Of a DNA stretch of 44,583 nucleotides, positions 1,136 through 20,176 are shown piece after piece. Numbering within the stretch: the first letter of the stretch is position 1; the number at the start of each line of letters is the position of its first letter. The position numbers and the translations under genes are program-made. The DNA comes from a virus. The stretch is taken from positions 1 to 44,583 of the IMG/VR virus record IMGVR_UViG_3300022745_000059, one strand, 5' to 3'. The notes under the pieces are model-generated. The model saw only the letters and a program-made list of their open reading frames with translations. It did no database searches and had not been told where the DNA came from.

Positions 1136-2405
1136 CACCGGGCACAGCTACTACAGCGCCAGCTCCTTCGCTGCGCTGATGCTCTGCCCCGGCAAGAAAA
1201 GTATGGAAGCTGGGCGCAAGGACAAGACAAGCGTCCATGCTGCATGGGGCACCGTGGCGCACCAGATCGCCGATGAGATCCTGTCGGACAACCGAGATCA
1301 CGTCACGCAAAACGGCGACGTGATCCTCCAAGATGGCCACAACATCGTCGTGGACGAGGAAATGTCGGCTGTTGTCGGCGCCTACGTCACCAACGTGCTC
1401 ACCATGACAGAGGGCGCGGTGTGGGCGCAGGCCGAGACGCGGACCAATTATGCGTTCTGGCTCGATGTTGACGAGGACAAGGCGTGGGGTACGGCGGACT
1501 ACACCGCCTTCATGCCCGACGGTGAGCTTCAGGTTCACGACCTGAAGACAGGCCGAGGGGTTGAGGTAGCAGCCGAAGGCAACGAGCAGATGATGCTCTA
1601 CGCCGGGGGCAAGCTGCTTGAGCTGGCAGAGATGGGGCTCGAAGCCTCGACAGTGCGGCTTGTGATCCACCAGCCACGCCTGTCGCAACACCCGTCCGAA
1701 GCGGTCATGACGGTGGCGCAGCTGGAAGAATGGTTGTCTCGTGCCAAGGCTGCCGCCGATGTCGAAGCAGAGGCAGCCAACATGTTCGACCCTGCTGTGC
1801 AGGCCGAGCACCAGACCGTCCAGTGGCTTGAAACCTACGTGCACCCCGGAGAGAAGCAGTGCCGGTTCTGCCGAGCCAAGGCGGTGTGCCCCCGGCTGGT
1901 GGGCCTGTCGCTGGACGCCGTGTTTCCTGACAACACGCCAGCGGTGACGGCCGACGACTTCGACAACCTCACGCCCAGCAAGGAAGCCATCCCGCTGACC
2001 TCCGCTGAGCGACTGGCGAAGATCATCGGCCTAGCCGACCTGATCGAGAACTGGCTCAACGCTTGTCGTGCTGAAGGCACCAGTCGCCTGTTGGCTGGTG
2101 CGGAGGTGCCAGGTTACAAGCTTGTGGCCGGTCGGGCAGGCCACCGCAAGTGGTCCGATCCTGTCGAGGCTGAGAACCTGCTGAAACGCACTGCCCTGAA
2201 GAAGGACGACATCTACGAACGGACACTCATCTCCCCCACCAAGGCCGCTGAGCTGCTTGAGACAGCCGCAGTCGGCCCCCGTCAAAAGAAGGCTATCGAA
2301 GCACTTGTGACCCGCGCCGAGGGGAAGCCTGCCATGGCTCCCATCTCCGACAAACGACCAGCGATGCAGGTAACGCCGCTGGCCGATCAGTTCTCCACTC
2401 TTTGA
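1119..2405 (+). CDS. DUF2800 family RecB-like (PD-(D/E)XK) nuclease, 428 residues
   Basis: The protein matches the phage DUF2800 family, RecB/Cas4-like nucleases found beside DUF2815 and polA genes. A SYYSASSFAALMLCPGK start is followed by GTADYT and the D-x-K of HDLKTG (D141, K143), then NEQMMLYA as the conserved Q region. A cysteine group, CRFCRAKAVC, together with the early cysteine in LMLCPG, could hold an iron-sulfur cluster as in AddB/Cas4 nucleases. It probably processes DNA ends in replication or recombination. I chose ATG 1119 because GGAGG lies at 1108-1112, six bases away. An in-frame TTG at 1083 has no such site. It overlaps the upstream gene by 17 bases and is followed closely by the DUF2815 gene. 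Confidence 0.88.
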   Translation: MLPATDTGHSYYSASSFAALMLCPGKKSMEAGRKDKTSVHAAWGTVAHQIADEILSDNRDHVTQNGDVILQDGHNIVVDEEMSAVVGAYVTNVLTMTEGAVWAQAETRTNYAFWLDVDEDKAWGTADYTAFMPDGELQVHDLKTGRGVEVAAEGNEQMMLYAGGKLLELAEMGLEASTVRLVIHQPRLSQHPSEAVMTVAQLEEWLSRAKAAADVEAEAANMFDPAVQAEHQTVQWLETYVHPGEKQCRFCRAKAVCPRLVGLSLDAVFPDNTPAVTADDFDNLTPSKEAIPLTSAERLAKIIGLADLIENWLNACRAEGTSRLLAGAEVPGYKLVAGRAGHRKWSDPVEAENLLKRTALKKDDIYERTLISPTKAAELLETAAVGPRQKKAIEALVTRAEGKPAMAPISDKRPAMQVTPLADQFSTL

Positions 2406-2416
2406 AAGCAACCACC

Positions 2417-3007
2417 ATGTCAGCAACTGAATTCCGTCTCGATAACGTCCGCGTGGCGTTCCCCAACCTGTTTAAGGCCACCCAGTTCAACGGCACCGGC
2501 AACTTCCGTTGCGGTGCAACGCTGATCATCACCCCTGATCATCCCCAACTGCCGCAGGTCAAGGCAGCCATCGAGGCAGCCGCCTTGGCCAAGTGGGGTG
2601 AGAAGGCCGCCGCACGACTCAAGGCAGCACGGGCAAAGAACAAGATCGCCCTCACCGACGGCGACCTGAAGTCGAAGTACGACGGCTTCGAGGGCAATCA
2701 AGTGCTCTCCGCAAACTGTCGTGGCGGCGCCACAGAGGCCGAGGCCACCAAACCCACGGTGTACGGCAAGAATCCGAAGCTCGGCCCGATCACGGAAGAA
2801 GCGAAGAGCCCGATCTACTCGGGTTGCTACGTGAACGCCAAGATCAGTCTCTACGCTGACGACCGTTTCGGCGACGGCGTGTTCTGCTCCCTCACCGGTA
2901 TCCAGTTCGCAGCCGATGGTGACGCCTTCGGTGCAGCTCCAGCCCGAGCCGACGACTTCGACGACATCGCCGACAGCGGCGGCGAAGACCCCGCTGCATG
3001 GGCTTGA
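2417..3007 (+). CDS. DUF2815 family protein, putative ssDNA-binding protein, 196 residues
   Basis: The N-terminus (TEFRLDNVRVAFPNLFKA) and the central GNQVLSANCRGG and SPIYSGCYVNAKISLYA segments match the phage DUF2815 family. That family is usually considered a single-strand-DNA-binding or annealing-type replication protein because of its fixed place between DUF2800 nucleases and polA genes. The acidic tail (DDFDDIADSGGED) is the kind of C-terminal tip that recruits partners in SSB proteins. ATG 2417 is preferred; a TTG at 2402 overlaps the previous stop but fits the family start less well. Only a weak gaaag lies upstream, so translation may be coupled to the nuclease gene, which ends 11 bases before. 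Confidence 0.82.
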   Translation: MSATEFRLDNVRVAFPNLFKATQFNGTGNFRCGATLIITPDHPQLPQVKAAIEAAALAKWGEKAAARLKAARAKNKIALTDGDLKSKYDGFEGNQVLSANCRGGATEAEATKPTVYGKNPKLGPITEEAKSPIYSGCYVNAKISLYADDRFGDGVFCSLTGIQFAADGDAFGAAPARADDFDDIADSGGEDPAAWA

Positions 3008-3475
3008 CGACAACCCGGTGTGCACTCGATAACGCGCGGAAGCTGTAGGTAGAAGGCACACCTGACACCCCGGAAAGACGGGGACCATCACGCATGCGGG
3101 CCGGTAGCCGTCTTGTTGACGGAATAGTAAGGGTCGCAACCTTGCCGACCCGCAGTCGTGATGGTGAATGCGCAGGCTGATGCGCGACAGGGCCTGGTGA
3201 CATACGTCGGGTTGGCGACTGCACCTCGGGCAAGCTTGCACTATGACCACCCTGAGAGGTAAGCCGGAGATCAGCACCGGCCACCATCACCCCAACAATT
3301 AGGGGCACCGCTCTCCTTTCACCCGGCCTGCCTGCCGGGTACGGTCACCCATCGGTTTCAGTAGACCCCTAAAACAAACCAGTCACGACTGAGACCTAGC
3401 ACGCCACGCGGTGCGTAAAAACGATTGTGGCGATGTCTGACCATGGCAACCCCATCAACCTAAAACCCCCGGAGA
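3008..3475 (+). ncRNA. Non-coding, highly structured segment between DUF2815 and polA genes (candidate structured RNA)
   Basis: There is no convincing gene here, but there are many perfect stems. They are CCCCG/CGGGG (3068-3072/3079-3083), ACCATCACG/CGTGATGGT (3084-3092/3157-3165) enclosing CCGTC/GACGG (3108-3112/3118-3122) and GGGTCG/CGACCC (3131-3136/3146-3151), GCGCA/TGCGC (3170-3174/3181-3185), CAGGG/CCCTG (3188-3192/3250-3254), GCCGG/CCGGC (3263-3267/3277-3281), ACCCGGC/GCCGGGT (3321-3327/3334-3340), and TTAGGGG/CCCCTAA (3299-3305/3366-3372). A second copy of the pairing strand, CACCATCAC at 3282-3290, can compete for 3158-3166. It sits in the 5' leader of polA, so it may be a cis regulator or a released RNA. 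It has no tRNA or group I intron core. The exact ends are unknown. Confidence 0.55.
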
Positions 3476-3481
3476 TTGAAT

Positions 3482-5557
3482 GTGACAACGCTTTGGTTTG
3501 ACTGCGAAACACGCAGCGAGTGCGACCTGAAGGCGCACGGAACCCACAGGTACGCAGAGCACCAAAGCACCCGCATCATCGTCGCCCAGTGGGCTATCGA
3601 CGACGGCGAGCCGGTGGTGCAGGACATGACAACCGAGCGGTACTACAGACCGGAGTTGGCCGCTGCGCTGGACGACCCCACCGTCACCGTCGTGGCACAC
3701 AACAGCATGTTCGACCGGGCATTGTTGCGCCACTGCTGGGGGCTCGACGTCCCCACCGCGCGGTGGAGCGACACGATGGTCAAGGCCATGTCTCACTCCC
3801 TCCCCGGAGGGCTTGACAAGCTATCGACCATCTTCGGCCTTGGTGAGGACCAAGCCAAGGACAAGCGCGGCAAGGACTTGATCCGGCTGTTCTGCCTACC
3901 GAAGAAGGACAAGCAAGGGGCGCTCTATTTCAACGACGCCACCTCGCACCCGGATGAATGGCAGGACTTCCTAGAATACTCCCGGCAGGACATCATCGCC
4001 ATGCGGACCATCGACAAGAAACTTCCCAAGTGGAACTTCGAGGCCGGGTCTTCCGAGCTGGTGCTGTGGCATCTTGACCAGACAATCAACGACCGAGGCT
4101 TCGCGGTCGATCTTGAGCTGGCCAACTCCGCCATCGAGGCCGTCAAGGAAGAGACAGCACGACTGAAGGAAGAGATCCACACCGCCACCAACGGCGAGGT
4201 GTCCAGCGCCAGCAAGCGGGATGAACTCTTGGCCTACGTCCTCAAAGAGCACGGTGTCACCCTGCCGGACATGGCCGCTGACACGTTGCGCCGCAGGTTG
4301 GAAGACCCGAACCTGCCCGAGGCGGTGAAGACGCTCATCAGCATCCGGCTGGAGGCCACGAAGACATCCACCGCGAAGTACAAGGCCGTTGTCAACTGCG
4401 CGTCACAAGACGGTCGGATGCGTAACACCCTCCAGTTCGCTGGTGCACTGCGCACCCAGCGGTGGGCTGGCCGGACGTTCCAGCCGCAGAACATGCCCCG
4501 TCCAGATATGAAGCAGCCGGAGATCGACACCGGCATCGCGGCGCTCAAGGTGGGGTGCGCATCGATGGTCTTCCCGAACGTGATGCAGCTCACGGCCAAC
4601 ACCGTGCGGGGGTGCATCGTCGCGCCACCAGGCAAGAAGCTGGTTATCGCCGATCTATCCAACATCGAAGGCCGGGGGCTGGCGTGGCTGGCTGGTGAGG
4701 ACTGGAAGATCAAAGCCTTCGCCGACTTCGACCAAGGCAGAGGCCACGATCTGTACAAGCTGGCCTATGCCCGCAGCTTCGGTGTGGCCCCCGACACCGT
4801 TGACTCCAGCATGCGCCAGATCGGCAAGGTGCAGGAACTTGGCCTAGGGTACGAGGGAGGCGTGGCGGCGTTCCTGACCTTCGCAGCGGTGTACCGGATG
4901 GACTTGACGGTGCTCGCCAAGGCTGTGCTCGCCACGGTTGACCAGACAGCCTACGCCGACGCCCTCCGCGTTCACGAATGGGCGGCCAAGAACGACCGAA
5001 CGCTCGGCCTGCCGAAGGACACCTACGTGGCGTGTGAAATCCTCAAAGCCGCGTGGCGCGCCGCTCACCCGGCGACGGCATCGTTCTGGAAAGACGTCGG
5101 AGCTACCGTTAGGCAGGCCATCGACAGCCCTGACACCACTTTCAACTGCCGACAGGTGGCGACGCGACGGACGGGTGGTTGGCTCCGTATCCGGCTCCCC
5201 TCGGGCCGCCAACTGTGCTACCTGAAGCCTGCGGTAGACGATGGGCAGATCACCTACTTCGGCGTCAACCAGTACACCCGCAAGTGGGAACGACTGAAGA
5301 CCTACGGTGGGAAGCTTGTGGAGAACATCGTGCAGGCCTGGGCTCGTGATGTTCTCGCAAGCAGCATGCAACCTGTCGAGGACGCCGGGTACAAGATCGT
5401 GCTGACCGTCCACGATGAAATTCTGACGGAGTGCCCTGACGACCCAGCCTACACGGCGGAGGCTCTCGGCAAGATGATGGCCACGGCCCCCAAGTGGGCC
5501 GAAGGTTGCCCGCTGGCTGCGGCTGGCTTTGAAACAACGAGGTATCGAAAGGGGTGA
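3482..5557 (+). CDS. polA: Family A DNA polymerase with 3'-5' exonuclease domain, 691 residues
   Basis: This is the replicative DNA polymerase. The N-terminal DnaQ-like exonuclease shows FDCET (D7, E9), then VVAHNSMFD, and later YSRQD for the third motif. The polymerase domain has motif A VIADLSNIEGR (D391), motif B RQIGKVQELGLGYEGG, and motif C LTVHDE (H644, D645). There is no 5'-3' exonuclease domain, as is usual for phage enzymes of this branch, which includes DUF2800/DUF2815-linked and DpoZ-type polymerases. I chose GTG 3482 because GGAG at 3471-3474 is seven bases away. An in-frame TTG at 3476 would be only one base from it. The last codons (ETTRYRKG, stop) fall in a 24-bp repeat found again 283 bases downstream. 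Confidence 0.95.
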   Translation: MTTLWFDCETRSECDLKAHGTHRYAEHQSTRIIVAQWAIDDGEPVVQDMTTERYYRPELAAALDDPTVTVVAHNSMFDRALLRHCWGLDVPTARWSDTMVKAMSHSLPGGLDKLSTIFGLGEDQAKDKRGKDLIRLFCLPKKDKQGALYFNDATSHPDEWQDFLEYSRQDIIAMRTIDKKLPKWNFEAGSSELVLWHLDQTINDRGFAVDLELANSAIEAVKEETARLKEEIHTATNGEVSSASKRDELLAYVLKEHGVTLPDMAADTLRRRLEDPNLPEAVKTLISIRLEATKTSTAKYKAVVNCASQDGRMRNTLQFAGALRTQRWAGRTFQPQNMPRPDMKQPEIDTGIAALKVGCASMVFPNVMQLTANTVRGCIVAPPGKKLVIADLSNIEGRGLAWLAGEDWKIKAFADFDQGRGHDLYKLAYARSFGVAPDTVDSSMRQIGKVQELGLGYEGGVAAFLTFAAVYRMDLTVLAKAVLATVDQTAYADALRVHEWAAKNDRTLGLPKDTYVACEILKAAWRAAHPATASFWKDVGATVRQAIDSPDTTFNCRQVATRRTGGWLRIRLPSGRQLCYLKPAVDDGQITYFGVNQYTRKWERLKTYGGKLVENIVQAWARDVLASSMQPVEDAGYKIVLTVHDEILTECPDDPAYTAEALGKMMATAPKWAEGCPLAAAGFETTRYRKG
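5530..5553 (+). repeat. 24-bp direct repeat, copy 1 (3' end of polA)
   Basis: This 24-base sequence (core tgaaacaacgaggtatcgaa) is identical to 5813-5836. Here it encodes the polymerase C-terminus ETTRYRKG and supplies the ribosome-binding site (aaaggg) for the next gene. Confidence 0.95.
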
Positions 5558-12199: not shown

Positions 12200-12219
12200 A
12201 ACCCCTCACTTATGGGGTT
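12200..12219 (-). terminator. Hairpin at the end of the giant virion gene
   Basis: AACCCC (12200-12205) pairs with GGGGTT (12214-12219) around an 8-base loop that contains the stop codon of the giant protein. There is no U-tract, so it may be an attenuator or an mRNA end-stabilising hairpin rather than a strong terminator. Confidence 0.35.
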
Positions 12220-15200
12220 CTTCATAGCCAAAGAGTATTGCAGCCGGGTTGCCTGTCTTGCCTTCGTGTAGTGCCGACGCGCCAGACACACTCCGGTTTG
12301 CCTGCGCTGACGGCACACCCGGCAAGACGTCACCTGCCATGTTGATCGCAGCCTTTCGGAACGCCGTGTCGAACACGCCTTGGTGCACTTCCTTGCCGAG
12401 CTTGGCGGCGTCCGCGAACAGGCGCATGCCTGATGGTCCCTGATAGCCTTGCGACTCCTCGCCGAACAGCGCGAGCATGCCGACGGACAATTCCCGCGCG
12501 ACGGGCACCATGCCCAGCAGCGAGCGCAACGTCTCGAAGAACCAACTCTTGGCTGCGTGCTCCGGGGTGTCCCAGTTTCCAGAGTCACCGGGGGTGAGCG
12601 CGTTCTTGAGCAGCAACCCTGCCGCAGCTGGCCCAGCGATGGCCAGCATGAAGTGGGCGAGTTGCTTGCCTGTGGTTTTCTGGAGCTTGCTGTTGCCGTA
12701 GACCACGTTGTATTGCGTGCTCCCATAGCTGTAGAAGGCTGTGGCAAGTTTGGCCATGCGCGACTGGTCGCGCTCCCATGCAGCTTGGTCAACCTTCTCT
12801 CCACCACCTTGGCTGTCTTTCACCGCCTGATCAGCCGCAGCGATGACCCGAGACATGTCGGCGTTCCCTTTGGCGTCGTAGAGGGTCATGCCCTCATCGA
12901 TGGCCTTGTGGTAGGCGCCCCACCACGTCGGGGTGTCAACCGCCAACTCCTGCATCTTGAGCATGGGCAAGAACCCGGCATGTTGCACCCATGTCATGAC
13001 ACCTGACTGGCCCTCGATCTTGTTCCGCACGGCATTCAGGTCGCGGAACATGGTGATCGGACGGTGCGCCATGAAGGACGATAGCTTGCGCATTTCCTTC
13101 ACCGCCCCATAGCCGTCGGCGAGGTACTTGTCCGCGCCGACCTTGAGCCACTTCGACCCGATGACAGAGGCGGCCATGCCGAGGCCGGTGGACTGCTGCA
13201 CCGCGTTGGTGAAGTTGAACAGGAGACCGGCATAGGACACGCCTTTGGCGATCACCGAGGCGGCGTAGTCCAGCGCGTCGCCTTGCTTCGTCTGACCACC
13301 GGCCATGTCATCCACCCAGCTGCGCCACTCCGATCGGAACTGGGTGTCGTAATGCTGGTGCATCGCCTCAGAAATGTGATGGCTCCCGAGCAGCTTGTTC
13401 TGGTCGCGTGTCCACTCGCGCCAGCTCACGTCGTGGATGACCTCGTTGAGGCCACTGTAGAGCGCCCCAAGAGTGAGCAGCAGCGGGCGCCCGTTCACTG
13501 CGTCGGCCCGGTCTTTGGTGAACGTCTGGCGCGTCGTGGCCGCAACGCTCGTCACGTCGCTCACCGGGCGCTTGGCATCACGGTCAGCGTGCTCCTGCGC
13601 CTTCACCGAAGCGCGGGGGTCATACTTGATGGGGTAATGTCCTCCGGCCAGCACAACGTCAACACCGTCGGATGACCGCACGGTGATCCTGCGGGCCTCT
13701 GTCCACTCAGGCTCTTTCCCGTTGAATTGGCGCTCAAGCCGCGCCACCTCCGGGCGCAGACGCGAAACGACCTCGAAGATCTTGTCTGCCAGCCGGATGT
13801 GGCTTGCGGGGAGGGTAGCGACGATGGCGTTGATCTGGGCAGGGGTGAGCGTCTTGTAGGCCGTGCCAGCGATGCCGCCGCCAAGCAGCCGCTGGTAGTT
13901 GCCTTCGTTGCCGATGTTCAACAAGACGGCGAAACGTTGCTGCCAGTTCAACCGCACGCCGTCAAGGCCAGGGATCTTGATACCGCGCCCCAGCTTGTCG
14001 GCCAGAGGAACCTCCGCAAGCACGTCTTTCAACATGCGGTGGAGCTCAACGGCGAAGTTGTGTTTGTAGGCTGTCTCGGTATCGGCGCACTTGTTGGCGG
14101 GGAACAAGACGTGATCGTGCAAAGGCCCGTTGACACCGTTGTCCGCGATGCGGAACCGCGTTGACATCTTCACACCCCGGTGGAGGAAGTCTGTCGCCTG
14201 CTCTTTGGCTGAGCCAACGACGTCCGCAGCCGTGGCGTGGTTCTCTGCTGCCTTGCCTGCGTTCGCAATCAGCCCCGAGGCGATAGCGTCGGCCACCTCA
14301 GAGTAACCGAGCTTCCCCGCCGTGGTGTACATGACGTCGGAGCGATCCTCCGCTTTGGCAAGTTGCTCCGCAACAGACACAAGCCCGCGCATTTCTTCCA
14401 CCGTCATGTTGATGTACGGCATGCTCGGCTCGGCATCCAAGATGTCGGCGGCCACCTGCAACTGATCAACGTCGGCCTTGTAGATGAGTTCACCATCGAC
14501 GTCACGTTCGGCGATCTTGGCGAGGAACTTGCGCTTGGCCGCGCCGCTGAACACCGGCATGACGGGGATCTCTGCACCAAGCGCGATGGCGCTGCGCACG
14601 TAGGCCCCGAAGCTCGTCATGCGGTCTGCCGCCTCGCCGGACATGTCCGCGAGGTCGTACTTGTGCAGGACACCACGCAGCGCAGCGCCTGCGGCGTGAC
14701 CGTACTTGCCTGACGTCGCGTCCTTGCTGATCTTGCGCAGGCGCTGCACTGCTGCCTTCATCTCCGCCTGCGCGGCTGACGAGTGCTTTGCCAGCGCGGT
14801 GTTCAGCAGCTGTGCACGGCGCATTTCCACGCTGCGCTCGAAGGGTGTCTTACCGCCCTTCTCGTCAAGCGCAGCCTGAGCGCGCTCACGCGCCTTCGTG
14901 CCAGCCTTCACGGCAAGTGGCATGGCCTCATCTTTGGCCATGAGTGGGGGCGCGGTCAGGCGGGCGTACTCTTCTTTGACAACCTTCTCGTACACTGGGT
15001 AAGACGCAGCCTGTGCTGCCCCTTCATCCATGCCGCCCTTCACGAGGCGTGCCGCCTCCTCTGCTTGGGCCTTCTCCCCTGCGATGTGCGCCTTGGCGTC
15101 GGCCTCGTCTTCGCTGAGTGGTTTGCGCGTCAGGCGATTCAACTCCGCAGAGGTCGCGGCTTTCTGCGCCGTCTCTGGGGTCCGCGCCTTGCGGTATGCC

Positions 15201-18200
15201 TCACCGGCTTCCTTTCCAGCTCGGGTAGCCGCTGCGACGTAACGGTCTGGGCGCAGGTCGCGGATGCGCAGGGAGCTTACTGTCTCGGTGGCGATCTGCT
15301 TTGCCGCAGCGGCCAGCGCCCGACTGCCGCCCAAGGCCTTGGTTTGCGCAGCCAGCTCCGCAGCGACGAAGCGCACCCGTGCCTCACCGTGGATGGCGGC
15401 GTCCGCTGCGCGCTCTACCGCCGCAGGCGTTGCCAGATCGGAGTACCGCTCCAACATGAGCCGGTCGGTTTCTGCATCCACGGCTTCCTTGGGAGGCAAC
15501 CCCTCTGCCAACTCGTGCAGCATGGTGTCCGCAGAGTCGAAGCCGAACCGGCTGGCGATCAGCTCAGGCGACCATCCTTCTTTGGCAACCATGCCGCGTG
15601 CTTGGAGTGCCTTCAGCTCTGCATCAGATAGATTAAAACTCTTAAGGTCTGCCAAGTCGAGCCGCCCAGCGGTGACCTCGTTGACGTCCCGTGCGTCGCT
15701 GCCCCGACGCTCCTGGTAGTCTTTGCGCACGGAGTAGTGCCGGTGTCCACCAAGCTCGTCGTTGATCCGCTCTTCGAGGTCGGTCAGCTCGACGCCGTTC
15801 TCTCCTGGAAGTAGGTAGCCGTGCTCCGCAAGCCGCTCCGCCATGACTTCAGCGGTGACGCCGCCTGTTTTGCGGAACGGTGGGGCGGAGAACACTTCGC
15901 CCTTCATTGTCATGTTGTCCTCGTGGACACCAAGATTGACCGCTGCCTCCTCACGGGAGATCCCACCGAGCTTTGCGATGGCCACCAGCAGGGAGTCGCG
16001 CGTCGGGTCGAGATCTCGCCCGACGGCAGTCGAGACCGCCTTGAGTTGGTTTTCTCCCGACATCGCTCCGCGCAGGAAGGACCACGCCATGTAAACCGGC
16101 TCTTGCATCACCTTGCGGCGTGCCTCGATACGCACCTCGCGGCGCTTTGCCTTCTCCTCAGCCTGAAGTTCCTTAAGCTTTCCCGACTTGGCGTTGCTGG
16201 CCCACCGTTGGGCACGCAGAGACTTAGCCTGTAGTTCAGCGGTGGCGGCGTCAACATCGGACTGGCTGGCCGTCTGGTAGGCCTTCCAGTCGCTATCCGA
16301 CATACCCTCCGGCTTTTCCTCGACCCCTGCGAACATACCCCGCGCACGTCGGGCTTGCGCGATGGCTTCATCCGTGGCGAGCATGCGGTCGTAGACGCTG
16401 CGGATCTCGGGTGAGATTGTTGCCTCGCCACCCTTCAGGTACGCCATCGTCGCCTTGTACGCCTGCAACAGGAACGCACGGAACTGAGCGAATAACGAAG
16501 CAAGCTCAGGCGTGGGTGCCTTGCCACTGTACAGGTACGCCTCGAAACCCTTGGCGACCTTCTCGTGCGCGTCCTCACGCTCGGCCAAAGTCTTGCCGTG
16601 CCAAGCATCCACGCTCTCGATACCTGTCCACTTGAGGATGGTGTCAGCCATCTCCTTCACCGCAGGCAGGGCAGTGGGTGACGCCGCAAGACCCATGTAC
16701 ATCTCAAGGAAAACGTGCGCCCCTTCATGGGCTGGTGACGAGGCATCCGACCCCTCGAACAGGTGCATGATGGGGGTGTTCTCTCCTCGGAATTCGATCT
16801 GCGCACGAGGGATGTCGGTGCCGTCGTTCTGGTAGAGCGTCGTGATGTCCTTGATGCTCTCGCCTTTGTAGATCACGAAGTTCTTGGCCCCGTTGCCCTT
16901 GGTCTTGACGAACTCCCCTTCGTAGGTGTGACCCGCGATTCCGGCCTCATGAAGCAGATCGGACGCTTTGCGCATGGACATCGCGTAGTCGTAACCGTCT
17001 TCCTCGAAATGCTTGGCAATACCGTGATAGATCTGTTGGCCGGACATCCGTGCCATATCGACATTCTCGCCAAGGATGAGGCGAACGGCGGTGTTCAGCA
17101 CATCCTTGACGTAGCGCGACTGCTCGCTTCCGTATTTGTCCCACAGGAGCAGGTGCTCGTCTTCCGGCAGTTCCGTCGCATACACCTGACCTTTAAGCGG
17201 TTCATTCTCTACGGCTTCCCTGACCTCCGCCTGCCGTCTTGCCAGGACTTCCTCCGCCCACCGTGTCGTCATGCTAACATGAGCGCCGATGGCGGATAGA
17301 ACACCCAGCCGGGAGGTTGTGTATCTGATCCGGTTTGCGTACTCCTCTAGGGAATGGGTGTTACTCGGTGATGACCCCCAAGCCTTAAAAGCCTCATCCC
17401 AGCCGCTAAGCGACGTTTTGTCGCCTTTGGCGCTGGCCCGCATGGCGTCAATAATGCTGATCTTGGCTCCGTCTGTCGCCTTCTCAAAGGCCCTCCCAGC
17501 GTCGGTTAGACCTGCTGCGTCAAGTGCCTTCAGCATCGCCTTGGCAGACGTTGGCCACCCCTTCTCTAAGGCGTCACCCCGCAGAGACGCCTCCGCCTCC
17601 GCCTGTTTCCTTGCCTGCTCTTCCGCTGCCTGCGCCTCAGCGGCCTTGGCGTCGGATACCCGCTTTTCATAGCTGGCCAAGTACCCTGGACGCGCAGCCA
17701 GGTACTCCTCAACGGTCTGTTTGCGCTTCCAGTTCGGTTCGTTCTCCAGTCGTTTTTCGACAGCGGGCGGCGCGCCGGAGTACCGCTCCCTTGCCGCCTC
17801 GTAGGTGGCAAGCCACTCCTTGGCGTGTTTCTTCTCAATCTCGGACGTATCCGGGTTCTTGAGGATGTCTTGAACGTCAAGCACAACGTGCGACACGTAG
17901 GCGGAAGGGGTGGGGGAGTACACAAAGGTGTCGAGGATGGCATTGGCAACTGCTGCGCTCTTCGACTGGATAACCTGCCCCTGGTCAGGAACGGCACGGG
18001 CGCGAAGATCGTCCAGCTTGACACTACCGCCGTTGGCGAATACGACAAACTCTTTGCCTTCTCGGCTGAGGCGACGCTCTAGGTTGCTCACCGAGATCTT
18101 GCGGTACACCTCCGCAACGGCGTCTTTCTCTGCCGTCAGGTAGTGCCCCGCACCGTAGGCGGCGTTGCCTTCCCCCGTCCCGGCGAAGGCTTCCTCGAAC

Positions 18201-20176
18201 TTGGCAATGTCGCGGATGGCCGAGCCGTGGTAGGCGCGTTGGTCAAGCCGGTCCTGCATGGCCTGCAAAGCCTCGTCCGCCCACTTGCTTGCCCGCACGT
18301 CGATGGGGTAGTCGCGCAGCGCCTGCTCGGGAGTGATGCCTGCGTGGTGGGCGAAGGTGCTGTAGAGGTGCTTGAACAGATCGGCCTGTGCGTGGCTCAC
18401 CTCCCGCGAATACTTGCCGGTGGCGTGGAAGGCGTCGAACATCTTCTCTTTGACCGCCTGCTCCTCCTTCGCCCATGCCTTGGCCTCAGTCACCGTGCGC
18501 TCGACCTCGGGCTTCACCTTCTCGAAGGCCTTGACTTCTTCCTCGACCGCCTTCTTTGCGTCTCCAAAGGCGATGCCGTCCGGGTCGATCTTCAGATGCC
18601 CGCGCAGCGCGGTGTCGAGAGGACCGTTGGCCACGCCCGTAAGCCACTCCGACACAGGGATGCGGACATCACCCTTGAGCGTGACCTGTTCCGCCAGCTG
18701 GTGGCCGACAGAGGGCAGGATGCGGTTCAACTCTTCGGCATCAATCCCTTGGGCATCAAGGACTTCGGCCAACTTCTCGGCTGGCAGGTAAAGCGCGTCG
18801 GCCCCTGCACCGTCGGTCATGTCTGCGACAAGCTGGTTGAACGTGTCACCTGCCCGTGCAGCCGTCTTGCTCTCCGCTGCGGCTGCTGATGCACGGTCAA
18901 GGGCTTCTCCCGCCGTGAAGGCACGCCCTGCGTCCGATACCGTCTTGGCAATGCGTTCGATAGGCGCGCGCACCGAGGCTTCAGCGACTTTGCCGCCCAT
19001 CGTCAGGCCAAGCAGACCGCCCGTCGCTGCACCGACAGCGAGGTCAACCATATCGAACGGGGTCTGCATGCTCGACGGCATGGCAAGGTTCATCGCCTCG
19101 CGCCCGACCTCGCCCGTTGCAACACCAACCGCCGCGCCGCTGAGCACACGGGCGGCCCGCGTGCCTTGGAGCGACACAGGGGCTGCACCTTGGGCCGCAG
19201 AGATGAGCCACTGCGCCACCCCAGCACGGATAGCCCCGCCGGTGCCTTGAGTGTTCTGCGCAACATCCGCCATGGTGCTGACCATCGAGGACGTTGCAGG
19301 GATGGCCATGGCCTTGGCGCCGTGCTCGACAGCACCACGAACGAAAGCCGCTGTGCTGTCGGTGGCAGCGGCACCTGCCGCCTCACCCGCCGCGCCGCCA
19401 CTGGCGACGATGTAGGGCAAAGCACCAAGCAGATCGCCAATGCCGTGCGCGAACTTCGTGATCGGTCCCGCGCCTTCAGGCAGCGCGAAGGCCTGTTTCT
19501 GTTCATCAAAGGGCGCGGCGTACTTCGCCAGCGCGTAGTCCTCCAAGGCTGTGGATGCACCACCGGCCTTTGGGTTCTGCGCAGGGTCAACGGCGTGTCC
19601 CAGACGCTCTAGGTCGTTGCTGAGGGTGTCACCGAGCTTGGCAGCGCCAGCCGCCACGAAGCCCGCTGCACGGCCAAGCTTGTGGGTGAACCCGCCGAAG
19701 CCCTGCGCCAGCGCCATCGGCGCGCCGGTGAGGTCGCCAACAAAGTCGTAGCCCTTCGGAGTGGCCGTGCCCATGTCGCGGACAGCCTGCTCCGTGTCGT
19801 GCAGAGTGGCAATGTCGTCGTGCGCAACGTTGGCGTTGTCCTGCACGCGCAGGAATGCCGCCAAGGCAGGGCTCTTGCGCACCACGTCCAGCGCATCCGC
19901 TTGGCTCATGAGCAGCAGCCTGCGCGCGTCAACAGGGTTGGCCTCCGCTGCGCTCACCGGCATGGTGGTCATTCGTGCCATGAACTGCGACTGCGCCGCC
20001 TTGTCAGGGCTCACCCCCGCAGCGGAGATCAGGCTCGCACCCAACTCCCGGCGCGCTTCGGACTCCTGCCGCTGGCGCGACGCTGCGGCCCATCCGTCTT
20101 CATCAAGGTCCGAAGGGGTTTGGGGTTGTCCCAGCGGGTTTGCTAGGCTTTTTTCCGGGGCGTAGGATGCGGTCAT
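12206..20176 (-). CDS. Giant polyvalent internal virion protein, 2656 residues
   Basis: This is the largest gene, in the place of T7 gene 16. It reads as a phage 'polyvalent protein'. Gly/Ala-rich hydrophobic stretches lie near residues 130-380. An AYHGSAIRDIAKFEEAF segment (H650) with GAGHYLTAEKDAV starts a domain of the ADP-ribosyltransferase-like or LPD type. A second related segment ends in TKGNGAKNFVIYKGESIK. A zincin-like domain follows with SPAHEGAHVFLE (H1150, E1151, H1154) and a downstream EKVAKGFEAYLY that could give the third ligand. Long helical, charged regions come next, then a C-terminal part with hydrophobic segments (FTNAVQQSTG from 2322; LAHFMLAIAGPAAAGLLL). It is probably ejected into the host with the DNA. 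It overlaps the upstream gene by 74 bases. Confidence 0.85.
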   Translation of the reverse strand: MTASYAPEKSLANPLGQPQTPSDLDEDGWAAASRQRQESEARRELGASLISAAGVSPDKAAQSQFMARMTTMPVSAAEANPVDARRLLLMSQADALDVVRKSPALAAFLRVQDNANVAHDDIATLHDTEQAVRDMGTATPKGYDFVGDLTGAPMALAQGFGGFTHKLGRAAGFVAAGAAKLGDTLSNDLERLGHAVDPAQNPKAGGASTALEDYALAKYAAPFDEQKQAFALPEGAGPITKFAHGIGDLLGALPYIVASGGAAGEAAGAAATDSTAAFVRGAVEHGAKAMAIPATSSMVSTMADVAQNTQGTGGAIRAGVAQWLISAAQGAAPVSLQGTRAARVLSGAAVGVATGEVGREAMNLAMPSSMQTPFDMVDLAVGAATGGLLGLTMGGKVAEASVRAPIERIAKTVSDAGRAFTAGEALDRASAAAAESKTAARAGDTFNQLVADMTDGAGADALYLPAEKLAEVLDAQGIDAEELNRILPSVGHQLAEQVTLKGDVRIPVSEWLTGVANGPLDTALRGHLKIDPDGIAFGDAKKAVEEEVKAFEKVKPEVERTVTEAKAWAKEEQAVKEKMFDAFHATGKYSREVSHAQADLFKHLYSTFAHHAGITPEQALRDYPIDVRASKWADEALQAMQDRLDQRAYHGSAIRDIAKFEEAFAGTGEGNAAYGAGHYLTAEKDAVAEVYRKISVSNLERRLSREGKEFVVFANGGSVKLDDLRARAVPDQGQVIQSKSAAVANAILDTFVYSPTPSAYVSHVVLDVQDILKNPDTSEIEKKHAKEWLATYEAARERYSGAPPAVEKRLENEPNWKRKQTVEEYLAARPGYLASYEKRVSDAKAAEAQAAEEQARKQAEAEASLRGDALEKGWPTSAKAMLKALDAAGLTDAGRAFEKATDGAKISIIDAMRASAKGDKTSLSGWDEAFKAWGSSPSNTHSLEEYANRIRYTTSRLGVLSAIGAHVSMTTRWAEEVLARRQAEVREAVENEPLKGQVYATELPEDEHLLLWDKYGSEQSRYVKDVLNTAVRLILGENVDMARMSGQQIYHGIAKHFEEDGYDYAMSMRKASDLLHEAGIAGHTYEGEFVKTKGNGAKNFVIYKGESIKDITTLYQNDGTDIPRAQIEFRGENTPIMHLFEGSDASSPAHEGAHVFLEMYMGLAASPTALPAVKEMADTILKWTGIESVDAWHGKTLAEREDAHEKVAKGFEAYLYSGKAPTPELASLFAQFRAFLLQAYKATMAYLKGGEATISPEIRSVYDRMLATDEAIAQARRARGMFAGVEEKPEGMSDSDWKAYQTASQSDVDAATAELQAKSLRAQRWASNAKSGKLKELQAEEKAKRREVRIEARRKVMQEPVYMAWSFLRGAMSGENQLKAVSTAVGRDLDPTRDSLLVAIAKLGGISREEAAVNLGVHEDNMTMKGEVFSAPPFRKTGGVTAEVMAERLAEHGYLLPGENGVELTDLEERINDELGGHRHYSVRKDYQERRGSDARDVNEVTAGRLDLADLKSFNLSDAELKALQARGMVAKEGWSPELIASRFGFDSADTMLHELAEGLPPKEAVDAETDRLMLERYSDLATPAAVERAADAAIHGEARVRFVAAELAAQTKALGGSRALAAAAKQIATETVSSLRIRDLRPDRYVAAATRAGKEAGEAYRKARTPETAQKAATSAELNRLTRKPLSEDEADAKAHIAGEKAQAEEAARLVKGGMDEGAAQAASYPVYEKVVKEEYARLTAPPLMAKDEAMPLAVKAGTKARERAQAALDEKGGKTPFERSVEMRRAQLLNTALAKHSSAAQAEMKAAVQRLRKISKDATSGKYGHAAGAALRGVLHKYDLADMSGEAADRMTSFGAYVRSAIALGAEIPVMPVFSGAAKRKFLAKIAERDVDGELIYKADVDQLQVAADILDAEPSMPYINMTVEEMRGLVSVAEQLAKAEDRSDVMYTTAGKLGYSEVADAIASGLIANAGKAAENHATAADVVGSAKEQATDFLHRGVKMSTRFRIADNGVNGPLHDHVLFPANKCADTETAYKHNFAVELHRMLKDVLAEVPLADKLGRGIKIPGLDGVRLNWQQRFAVLLNIGNEGNYQRLLGGGIAGTAYKTLTPAQINAIVATLPASHIRLADKIFEVVSRLRPEVARLERQFNGKEPEWTEARRITVRSSDGVDVVLAGGHYPIKYDPRASVKAQEHADRDAKRPVSDVTSVAATTRQTFTKDRADAVNGRPLLLTLGALYSGLNEVIHDVSWREWTRDQNKLLGSHHISEAMHQHYDTQFRSEWRSWVDDMAGGQTKQGDALDYAASVIAKGVSYAGLLFNFTNAVQQSTGLGMAASVIGSKWLKVGADKYLADGYGAVKEMRKLSSFMAHRPITMFRDLNAVRNKIEGQSGVMTWVQHAGFLPMLKMQELAVDTPTWWGAYHKAIDEGMTLYDAKGNADMSRVIAAADQAVKDSQGGGEKVDQAAWERDQSRMAKLATAFYSYGSTQYNVVYGNSKLQKTTGKQLAHFMLAIAGPAAAGLLLKNALTPGDSGNWDTPEHAAKSWFFETLRSLLGMVPVARELSVGMLALFGEESQGYQGPSGMRLFADAAKLGKEVHQGVFDTAFRKAAINMAGDVLPGVPSAQANRSVSGASALHEGKTGNPAAILFGYEEPHK

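Follow-up and report, generated by a model that had tools for sequence, protein, structure and literature searches.

A mobile structured phage RNA with kissing hairpin loops and an exchangeable insert, located upstream of a DNA polymerase gene

The window analysed here is a whole 44,583-nt stretch of viral DNA (IMG/VR record IMGVR_UViG_3300022745_000059), and the region under study is the interval at positions 3008 to 3475. This interval is flanked upstream by a Gp2.5/SSAP-like gene of the DUF2815 type (2402 to 3007, plus strand; phrog_112, E 1e-41) and downstream by a DNA polymerase gene, polA (3476 to 5557, plus strand; phrog_17, E 2.5e-118), both of which lie outside the RNA described below. 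In its polymerase and gene order the phage resembles BPP-1-like podophages. The stretch between the two genes had been described as gene-free, and no credible open reading frame (ORF) was found in it; a protein-coding reading was rejected, the long antisense ORFs being without any PHROG match. Elsewhere in the window, an ORF at 698 to 1135 contains a long Ala-Pro dipeptide repeat that derives from a short DNA tandem repeat, and a 2,656-aa ORF on the minus strand (12206 to 20176) matches phrog_9880 (E 7e-264), a PHROG of unknown function.

Using sensitive blastn, two short, near-identical islands were found, corresponding to window positions 3162 to 3188 and 3261 to 3286, which are mostly intergenic in other phages and are carried by unrelated phages of Klebsiella, Escherichia, Pseudomonas, Burkholderia and Erwinia. 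At each locus read the order of parts was M, P2, VAR (which has no common sequence), P4 and D, and D was complementary to M, though the letters of both vary between phages. These parts form a compact RNA at 3158 to 3290 of the window, on the plus strand. Strand M (3158 to 3166, GTGATGGTG) pairs with strand D (3282 to 3290, CACCATCAC) to make the 9-bp helix P1. Downstream of M come AAT, the near-invariant hairpin P2 (3170 to 3185, GCGC-AGGCTGAT-GCGC), the hypervariable cassette VAR that fills the interval between P2 and P4 (3186 to 3262), and hairpin P4 (3263 to 3281, GCCGG-AGATCAGCA-CCGGC), which abuts P1 with no linker. The P2 loop kisses the P4 loop via GCUGAU/AUCAGC (GCTGAT at 3176 to 3181 and ATCAGC at 3270 to 3275 in the DNA), and P2 loop variants occur with matching P4 loops. 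Across copies the core is mostly about 65 to 150 nt long. A covariance model, R1, matches the window at 3155 to 3293 with 89 bits (E 6.7e-22), the window itself being among its 77 training sequences.

The original prediction was of a densely folded RNA. Its folding energy is modestly unusual (z = -2.0 for 3008 to 3475 and -2.7 for 3062 to 3300), so that in GC-rich DNA a large number of perfect stems is not in itself proof of structure, and it is comparison between phages that bears the prediction out. When M and D were swapped between phages, the mean pairing run fell from 7.3 to 5.3 bp, with a maximum of 5.7 in 200 swaps. When 77 copies of diverse phage origin, picked for differing flanks and inserts, were aligned, 93.6% of the cells in P1, P2, P4 and the loop-loop kiss were paired, compared to 85.8% after shuffling; 11 pairs had changed on both sides, and on all five measures none of 500 shuffles reached the observed value. 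Both-side changes were present in six of the nine P1 pairs, and the compensatory changes that would support the predicted stems were found in M:D, P2 and P4. Shuffling leaves the relatedness of the copies in place, whereas the slide control removes it, and with slid versions of the structure the covariation signal collapsed. G-U pairs are tolerated in the stems, as in RNA.

Since the first scan held the P2 loop fixed, the kiss was examined in further ways. When P2 was allowed other loops, the scan found AGGCGAU, accompanied by P4 loops containing UCGC, and AGGUGAU with GAUCACAU, which yields the kiss variants GCGAU/AUCGC and GUGAU/AUCAC beside GCUGAU/AUCAGC. The copy in Pseudomonas phage FBPa47, found solely through its VAR, has the kiss UGAUGA/UCAUCA; a search for other sequences with a UCAUCA P4 loop returned one extra contig (L368), in which no strong core was found. 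Among the matches listed from P4-only scans, which used non-standard loops and no P2 constraint, were GGUGA/UCACC, GCUCA/UGAGC, UGGCA/UGCCA, GAUGA/UCAUC and UUGC/GCAA. The 21 distinct loop pairs among these listed matches had a mean kiss of 3.8 bp versus 2.9 bp when swapped (maximum of 1000 swaps, 3.7), and about eight different loop pairs retain the kiss. A few pairs in the set do not, for example GACUGA/AUUCUCGGC under strict matching, in part because the automatic P2 call was crude. Taken on this comparative evidence, a conserved RNA with the fold given above is almost certainly present, and its secondary structure and kiss are established to the extent that sequence allows.

Upstream of the core lies strand U (3084 to 3092, ACCATCACG), the alternative partner of M, which forms 9 bp with positions 3157 to 3165. 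As originally predicted, U, M and D are perfectly complementary both ways, and U:M and M:D exclude each other. In related RNAs, each of the two pairings was found above chance. U is abutted by H_A, a 5-bp hairpin (3068 to 3083, CCCCG-GAAAGA-CGGGG) preceded by TGACA (3063 to 3067), and in other copies H_A also stands directly 5' of U, with stem letters that vary but stay paired. H_A thus abuts U as P4 abuts D, and M therefore has two partners of similar build. The remainder of the upstream hairpin B (U:M), its apical part at 3093 to 3156, varies between phages, and T-arm-like hairpins are enriched there in other copies. A subclass of copies shares a common TGAC-H_A-ACCAACACGCATG...CCAGCCGTGTTGGTG. 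As U was out of register in some rows of the MAFFT alignment (A4), U:M was assessed through swap nulls in place of column counts. The strict U:M pairing run was 5.5 versus 4.7 when swapped (107 copies; maximum of 200 swaps, 4.9), and 6.0 versus 4.8 where H_A anchors U, a value reached in none of 500 swaps.

Over 3062 to 3300, the U:M state has an energy of -97.4 kcal/mol, and the state with M:D, P2 and P4 one of -91.8 kcal/mol with the kiss not counted. The kiss would contribute roughly a further -8 kcal/mol to the latter (duplex estimate -8.3), which leaves little energy difference between the two folds. Minimum-energy folds contain U:M in most copies examined, M:D being 0 to 11 kcal/mol worse before the kiss. 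Of the bistable switch first envisaged, the above-chance U:M pairing and the similar energies stood, but a clear U was missing from several copies (L055, L096, L112 and L140, the last of which lies directly 3' of a tRNA). As some copies do without U, the U:M switch is accessory, and M:D with kissing P2 and P4 is the universally kept fold.

The RNA had been taken for a switch in the leader of polA, and this did not survive comparison with related phages. The core was absent ahead of polA in all 82 homologous loci (78 from IMG/VR together with BPP-1, BcepC6B, Acinetobacter phage 4316 and coliphage 606R2), where most of the polA relatives are 43 to 71% identical and the gap before polA, in the 65 loci where it was measurable, spans 76 to 2069 nt. 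It was also absent from all 18 relatives found via the SSAP gene, and elsewhere the same RNA sits beside unrelated genes. A polA-specific leader was rejected because the relatives lack the core. In four of the polA leaders without a core (L202, L212, L220 and L229), the CTGACACCCCGGAAAGACGGGG hairpin, which comprises H_A (window 3061 to 3083), is present before polA with 21 to 23 nt identical, and H_A may thus be a motif that moves independently. Four other SSAP-polA gaps (L205, L209, L210 and L223) hold a different GC-rich stretch with the recurring frame CCCCAGCATC...GCTGGGGAACGGGCCAC, which is possibly another leader RNA. In Escherichia phage vB_EcoM-606R2 a protein annotated with a TIR-like domain is encoded immediately 3' of polA (L195, 4617 to 5378).

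A 30-nt query for the P2 island matched 255 phage records at a permissive cut-off, the weakest of which are chance matches; with at least 80% query coverage required, the island is present in at least 164 phage records. Plasmid records with the island number 578 (571 at the same coverage), many of them 90 to 100 kb in size, like P1-like phage-plasmids; the one examined, an IncY plasmid, carries P1-like genes. Among complete E. coli genomes, 717 of 5,426 (approximately 13%) contain the island. A scan of one genome per species across bacteria and archaea gave 73 loci, nearly all in beta- or gammaproteobacteria, and a check of 58 of these with the model confirmed the core in nearly all. All scans are biased to the common P2 and P4 sequences, and the matches listed from two of them are a lower bound. 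By these sequence comparisons, the window copy is one of a widespread mobile phage RNA.

Copies elsewhere are located 3' of Q-like antiterminators or CI-like repressors, 5' of holins, in tRNA clusters and antisense to genes. In HK620, pR'/qut (pR' being the late promoter) lies on one side of the copy and the terminator tQ on the other, and in phage D6 and a P1-like plasmid the core is 5' of tciA-like genes. Many copies stand 10 to 150 nt ahead of a same-strand ORF. A common downstream target gene was sought and rejected, the neighbours being holins, N-like, Q-like and CI-like genes and many unknowns. Tandem double core matches were seen in eight loci (L037, L109, L129, L158, L160, L184, L188 and L189), the second match being weak in L184, L188 and L189. 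The two copies in L109 have differing kissing loops, GCGA/UCGC and GCUGAU/AUCAGC.

A same-strand tRNA lies within 500 nt of 27 of 198 copies (approximately 14%), compared to 6.7 for random positions in the same loci and to two copies with a tRNA on the opposite strand. In L140 a 64-nt core is wedged between two genes of a 12-tRNA array, with tRNA-Cys ending 4 nt before it and tRNA-Gly beginning 9 nt after it. Phage D6 has a copy directly 5' of tRNA-Ser, followed by a weaker second match. The D6 record (NC_050154; L184, 2029 to 2734) has three annotated tRNAs on the strand opposite to the ARAGORN calls, and the strand given in the record is probably wrong. In L109 (520 to 747), ARAGORN calls a tRNA-Pro (581 to 666) within the insert that separates P2 from P4. 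The upstream and downstream segments, as well as VAR, show an approximately 8- to 10-fold enrichment of T-arm-like hairpins.

The core itself follows the helix order of a tRNA. In alignment A1, the tRNA succession of acceptor stem, 2 nt, D arm, anticodon and variable arms, and a T arm abutting the acceptor corresponds to P1-AA-P2-VAR-P4-P1', with the 2-nt junction AA, a 5-bp P4 that abuts P1, and an elbow built by two loops; viral tRNA-like structures, compared alongside, share this helix order and two-loop elbow. The RNA differs from tRNA in that its elbow is a Watson-Crick kiss of 4 to 6 bp and VAR stands in place of the anticodon arm. The core copies showed neither a conserved CCA end nor a conserved anticodon, and the Rfam tRNA model did not match even the minimal L140 copy, so the likeness is topological. 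A canonical tRNA or tmRNA was rejected as an identity, since neither ARAGORN nor Rfam called one in the core, while both tRNAs next to the L140 core are called. RNase P, RNase Z, modifying enzymes and the ribosome all recognise the tRNA elbow, which viral tRNA-like RNAs imitate (PMC4810234). By analogy, we infer that the core could be recognised in the manner of a tRNA elbow.

The 194 VARs examined fall into 139 clusters, 111 of them with a single member. In 58 pairs the VARs are alike (mostly 80 to 100% identical, most above 80%) and both flanks unrelated; in two pairs the reverse is seen, with flanks alike and VARs unrelated (L108/L185 and L015/L120). From these comparisons, the insert behaves as a swappable cassette. 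Folds of three VAR clusters keep most of their pairs, a few of which are compensated, in what are few sequences and weak evidence. The window's own VAR had no relatives beyond chance among phage records. As the shortest VARs are reduced to about 9 to 13 nt (L140 and L116), VAR is not needed for the scaffold, and it may be tolerated filler and not an effector.

Promoter-like sites were found upstream of 24 of 183 copies versus 6 at random positions, an approximately fourfold excess. Terminator-like sites within 170 nt downstream were found for 32 of 148 copies versus 13.7 at random positions; the upstream control gave 27 and the reverse strand 22. Since these controls also hold such sites, terminators are weak evidence for stand-alone units, and a stand-alone transcription unit as a general rule was set aside as weakly supported. 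No terminator was seen directly 3' of the RNA in the window, and for this reason the window copy probably rides on the exonuclease-SSAP-polA transcript.

The explanation that we tentatively favour, at somewhat under an even chance for the mechanism as a whole, is a tRNA-like RNA that is mobile, carries an exchangeable insert and probably acts in trans. The RNA would be excised from the transcripts of phages (those of tRNA arrays, of late leaders downstream of Q and of other operons) and would work away from its own locus, its tRNA-like elbow binding a tRNA-binding partner such as RNase P, a tRNA-modifying enzyme or the ribosome. VAR would bear a variable activity or a decoy, and phages would swap it by recombining at the conserved arms P2 and P4. 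Formed first as transcription proceeds, the U:M helix would keep the RNA in a precursor fold, and M would be captured once P4-D has been made. The earlier idea of a cis attenuator or riboswitch acting on the downstream gene through exchange of U:M for M:D is in keeping with strands that are mutually exclusive here and in many copies, with two folds close in energy, and with the many copies 10 to 150 nt before a same-strand ORF. It is very doubtful all the same, as the downstream genes are unrelated, the 82 polA relatives have no core, some copies lack U, and others, L140 and L001 among them, are placed within tRNA arrays or run antisense to genes. That the core is a substrate of RNase P or other tRNA enzymes, which merely separates or matures neighbouring RNAs and has no product of its own, would suit the tRNA-like order with P4 abutting P1, the location in tRNA arrays and at the heads of late operons, and VARs as short as about 9 to 13 nt. 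With VAR as filler, the recurrence of the same VAR in unrelated flanks and the apparently kept paired structure of VARs are left unexplained, and we consider this distinctly unlikely.

A modular regulatory RNA, in which VAR targets other RNAs as an antisense or sponge and P1, P2 and P4 are a stabilising scaffold, would fit a hypervariable, exchangeable insert on a constant scaffold and the placement of the HK620 copy between pR' and tQ; the VARs looked at appear structured, not open, and make it quite improbable. An RNA-only assembly comparable to GOLLD and ROOL, with kissing loops or the M strand acting between molecules to form oligomers and VAR as cargo, is brought to mind by the kissing loops, variable insert and tRNA neighbourhood common to those RNAs (PMC12286853) and the present one, and by the tRNA-Pro call inside the L109 insert. 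The mostly 65- to 150-nt core, the complementarity of the loops and of P1 inside one molecule, and the absence of an Rfam match to GOLLD or ROOL render it unlikely. Cassette exchange between near-invariant arms of 20 to 25 nt, and the mobility of the core, could also be read as a recombination site at the DNA level, with folding that belongs to single-stranded DNA. The toleration of G-U pairs, the strand coupling to tRNA genes (27 same versus 2 opposite) and the promoter-like sites upstream on the RNA strand speak for RNA, and a DNA-level element is extremely improbable.

Returning to the trans-acting, tRNA-like RNA, a more ambitious form is a class of modular phage effector RNAs, in which a near-invariant, tRNA-mimicking scaffold with a kissing elbow presents recombination-swapped cassettes (139 clusters in 194 copies), for example as a set of decoys or inhibitors directed at tRNA-linked machinery or defences of the host. 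We regard this as possible, if on the doubtful side. So far, it seems, annotation has missed a structured RNA that well-known phages and prophages carry (HK620, D3, P1-like phage-plasmids and approximately 13% of complete E. coli genomes). Its covariation provides a ready secondary and tertiary model, with kissing loops open to compensatory mutation, and the exchangeable insert suggests a selected, diversifying function. The RNA also offers a compact proteobacterial case for the puzzle of why phage tRNA islands bear large structured RNAs.

Among known families, Rfam 15 covariance models gave no match in the window at gathering score, the weak best hits (E of 3.4 or more) being unrelated. A relationship to DUF2800 or DUF2815 motifs, raised in the original prediction, found no match among Rfam 15 families, a result that covers such motifs as far as that release includes them. 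The Rfam models for GOLLD, ROOL and C4 had no match in the window or in loci L001 to L006. The conserved sequences were not found in open-access PMC papers, and open-access literature on phage tRNA-like RNA, tRNA decoys and Proteo-phage-1 contained nothing on the present RNA, which is judged new relative to Rfam 15 and open-access papers only. Proteo-phage-1 RNA (RF03044) is likewise a structured RNA of proteobacterial phages, and in Pseudomonas phage PS-1 (L005) it occurs at 1216 to 1295 (63.7 bits), about 150 nt upstream of the core; it is separate, does not overlap and does not match the core. The purine riboswitch has a P1 helix, two hairpins with kissing loops and strand exchange at P1. 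The present RNA shares these features, but it has no Rfam match, no common downstream gene and no conserved ligand pocket evident in its junction, and it has a variable insert between the hairpins. C4 antisense RNA of P1 and P7 is a phage RNA with conserved paired loops, and P1-like elements also bear the present RNA, which differs in the absence of a C4 match in the Rfam scans and in its place 5' of tciA-like genes in D6 and the P1-like plasmid. GOLLD and ROOL, RNAs of phages or prophages, occur near tRNA islands and have kissing loops and a poorly conserved linker that sometimes holds tRNAs (PMC12286853). The present RNA is also phage-borne and non-coding, with a tRNA neighbourhood, kissing loops and a variable internal stretch. 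GOLLD is often more than 800 nt and ROOL env-120 659 nt long, whereas the core here is shorter than the approximately 600 to 800 nt or more that serves as a length criterion for those families, has no Rfam match to them, and has an insert that is exchanged as a cassette. The RNA falls in no family tested, yet in its setting and its kissing loops it resembles GOLLD and ROOL.
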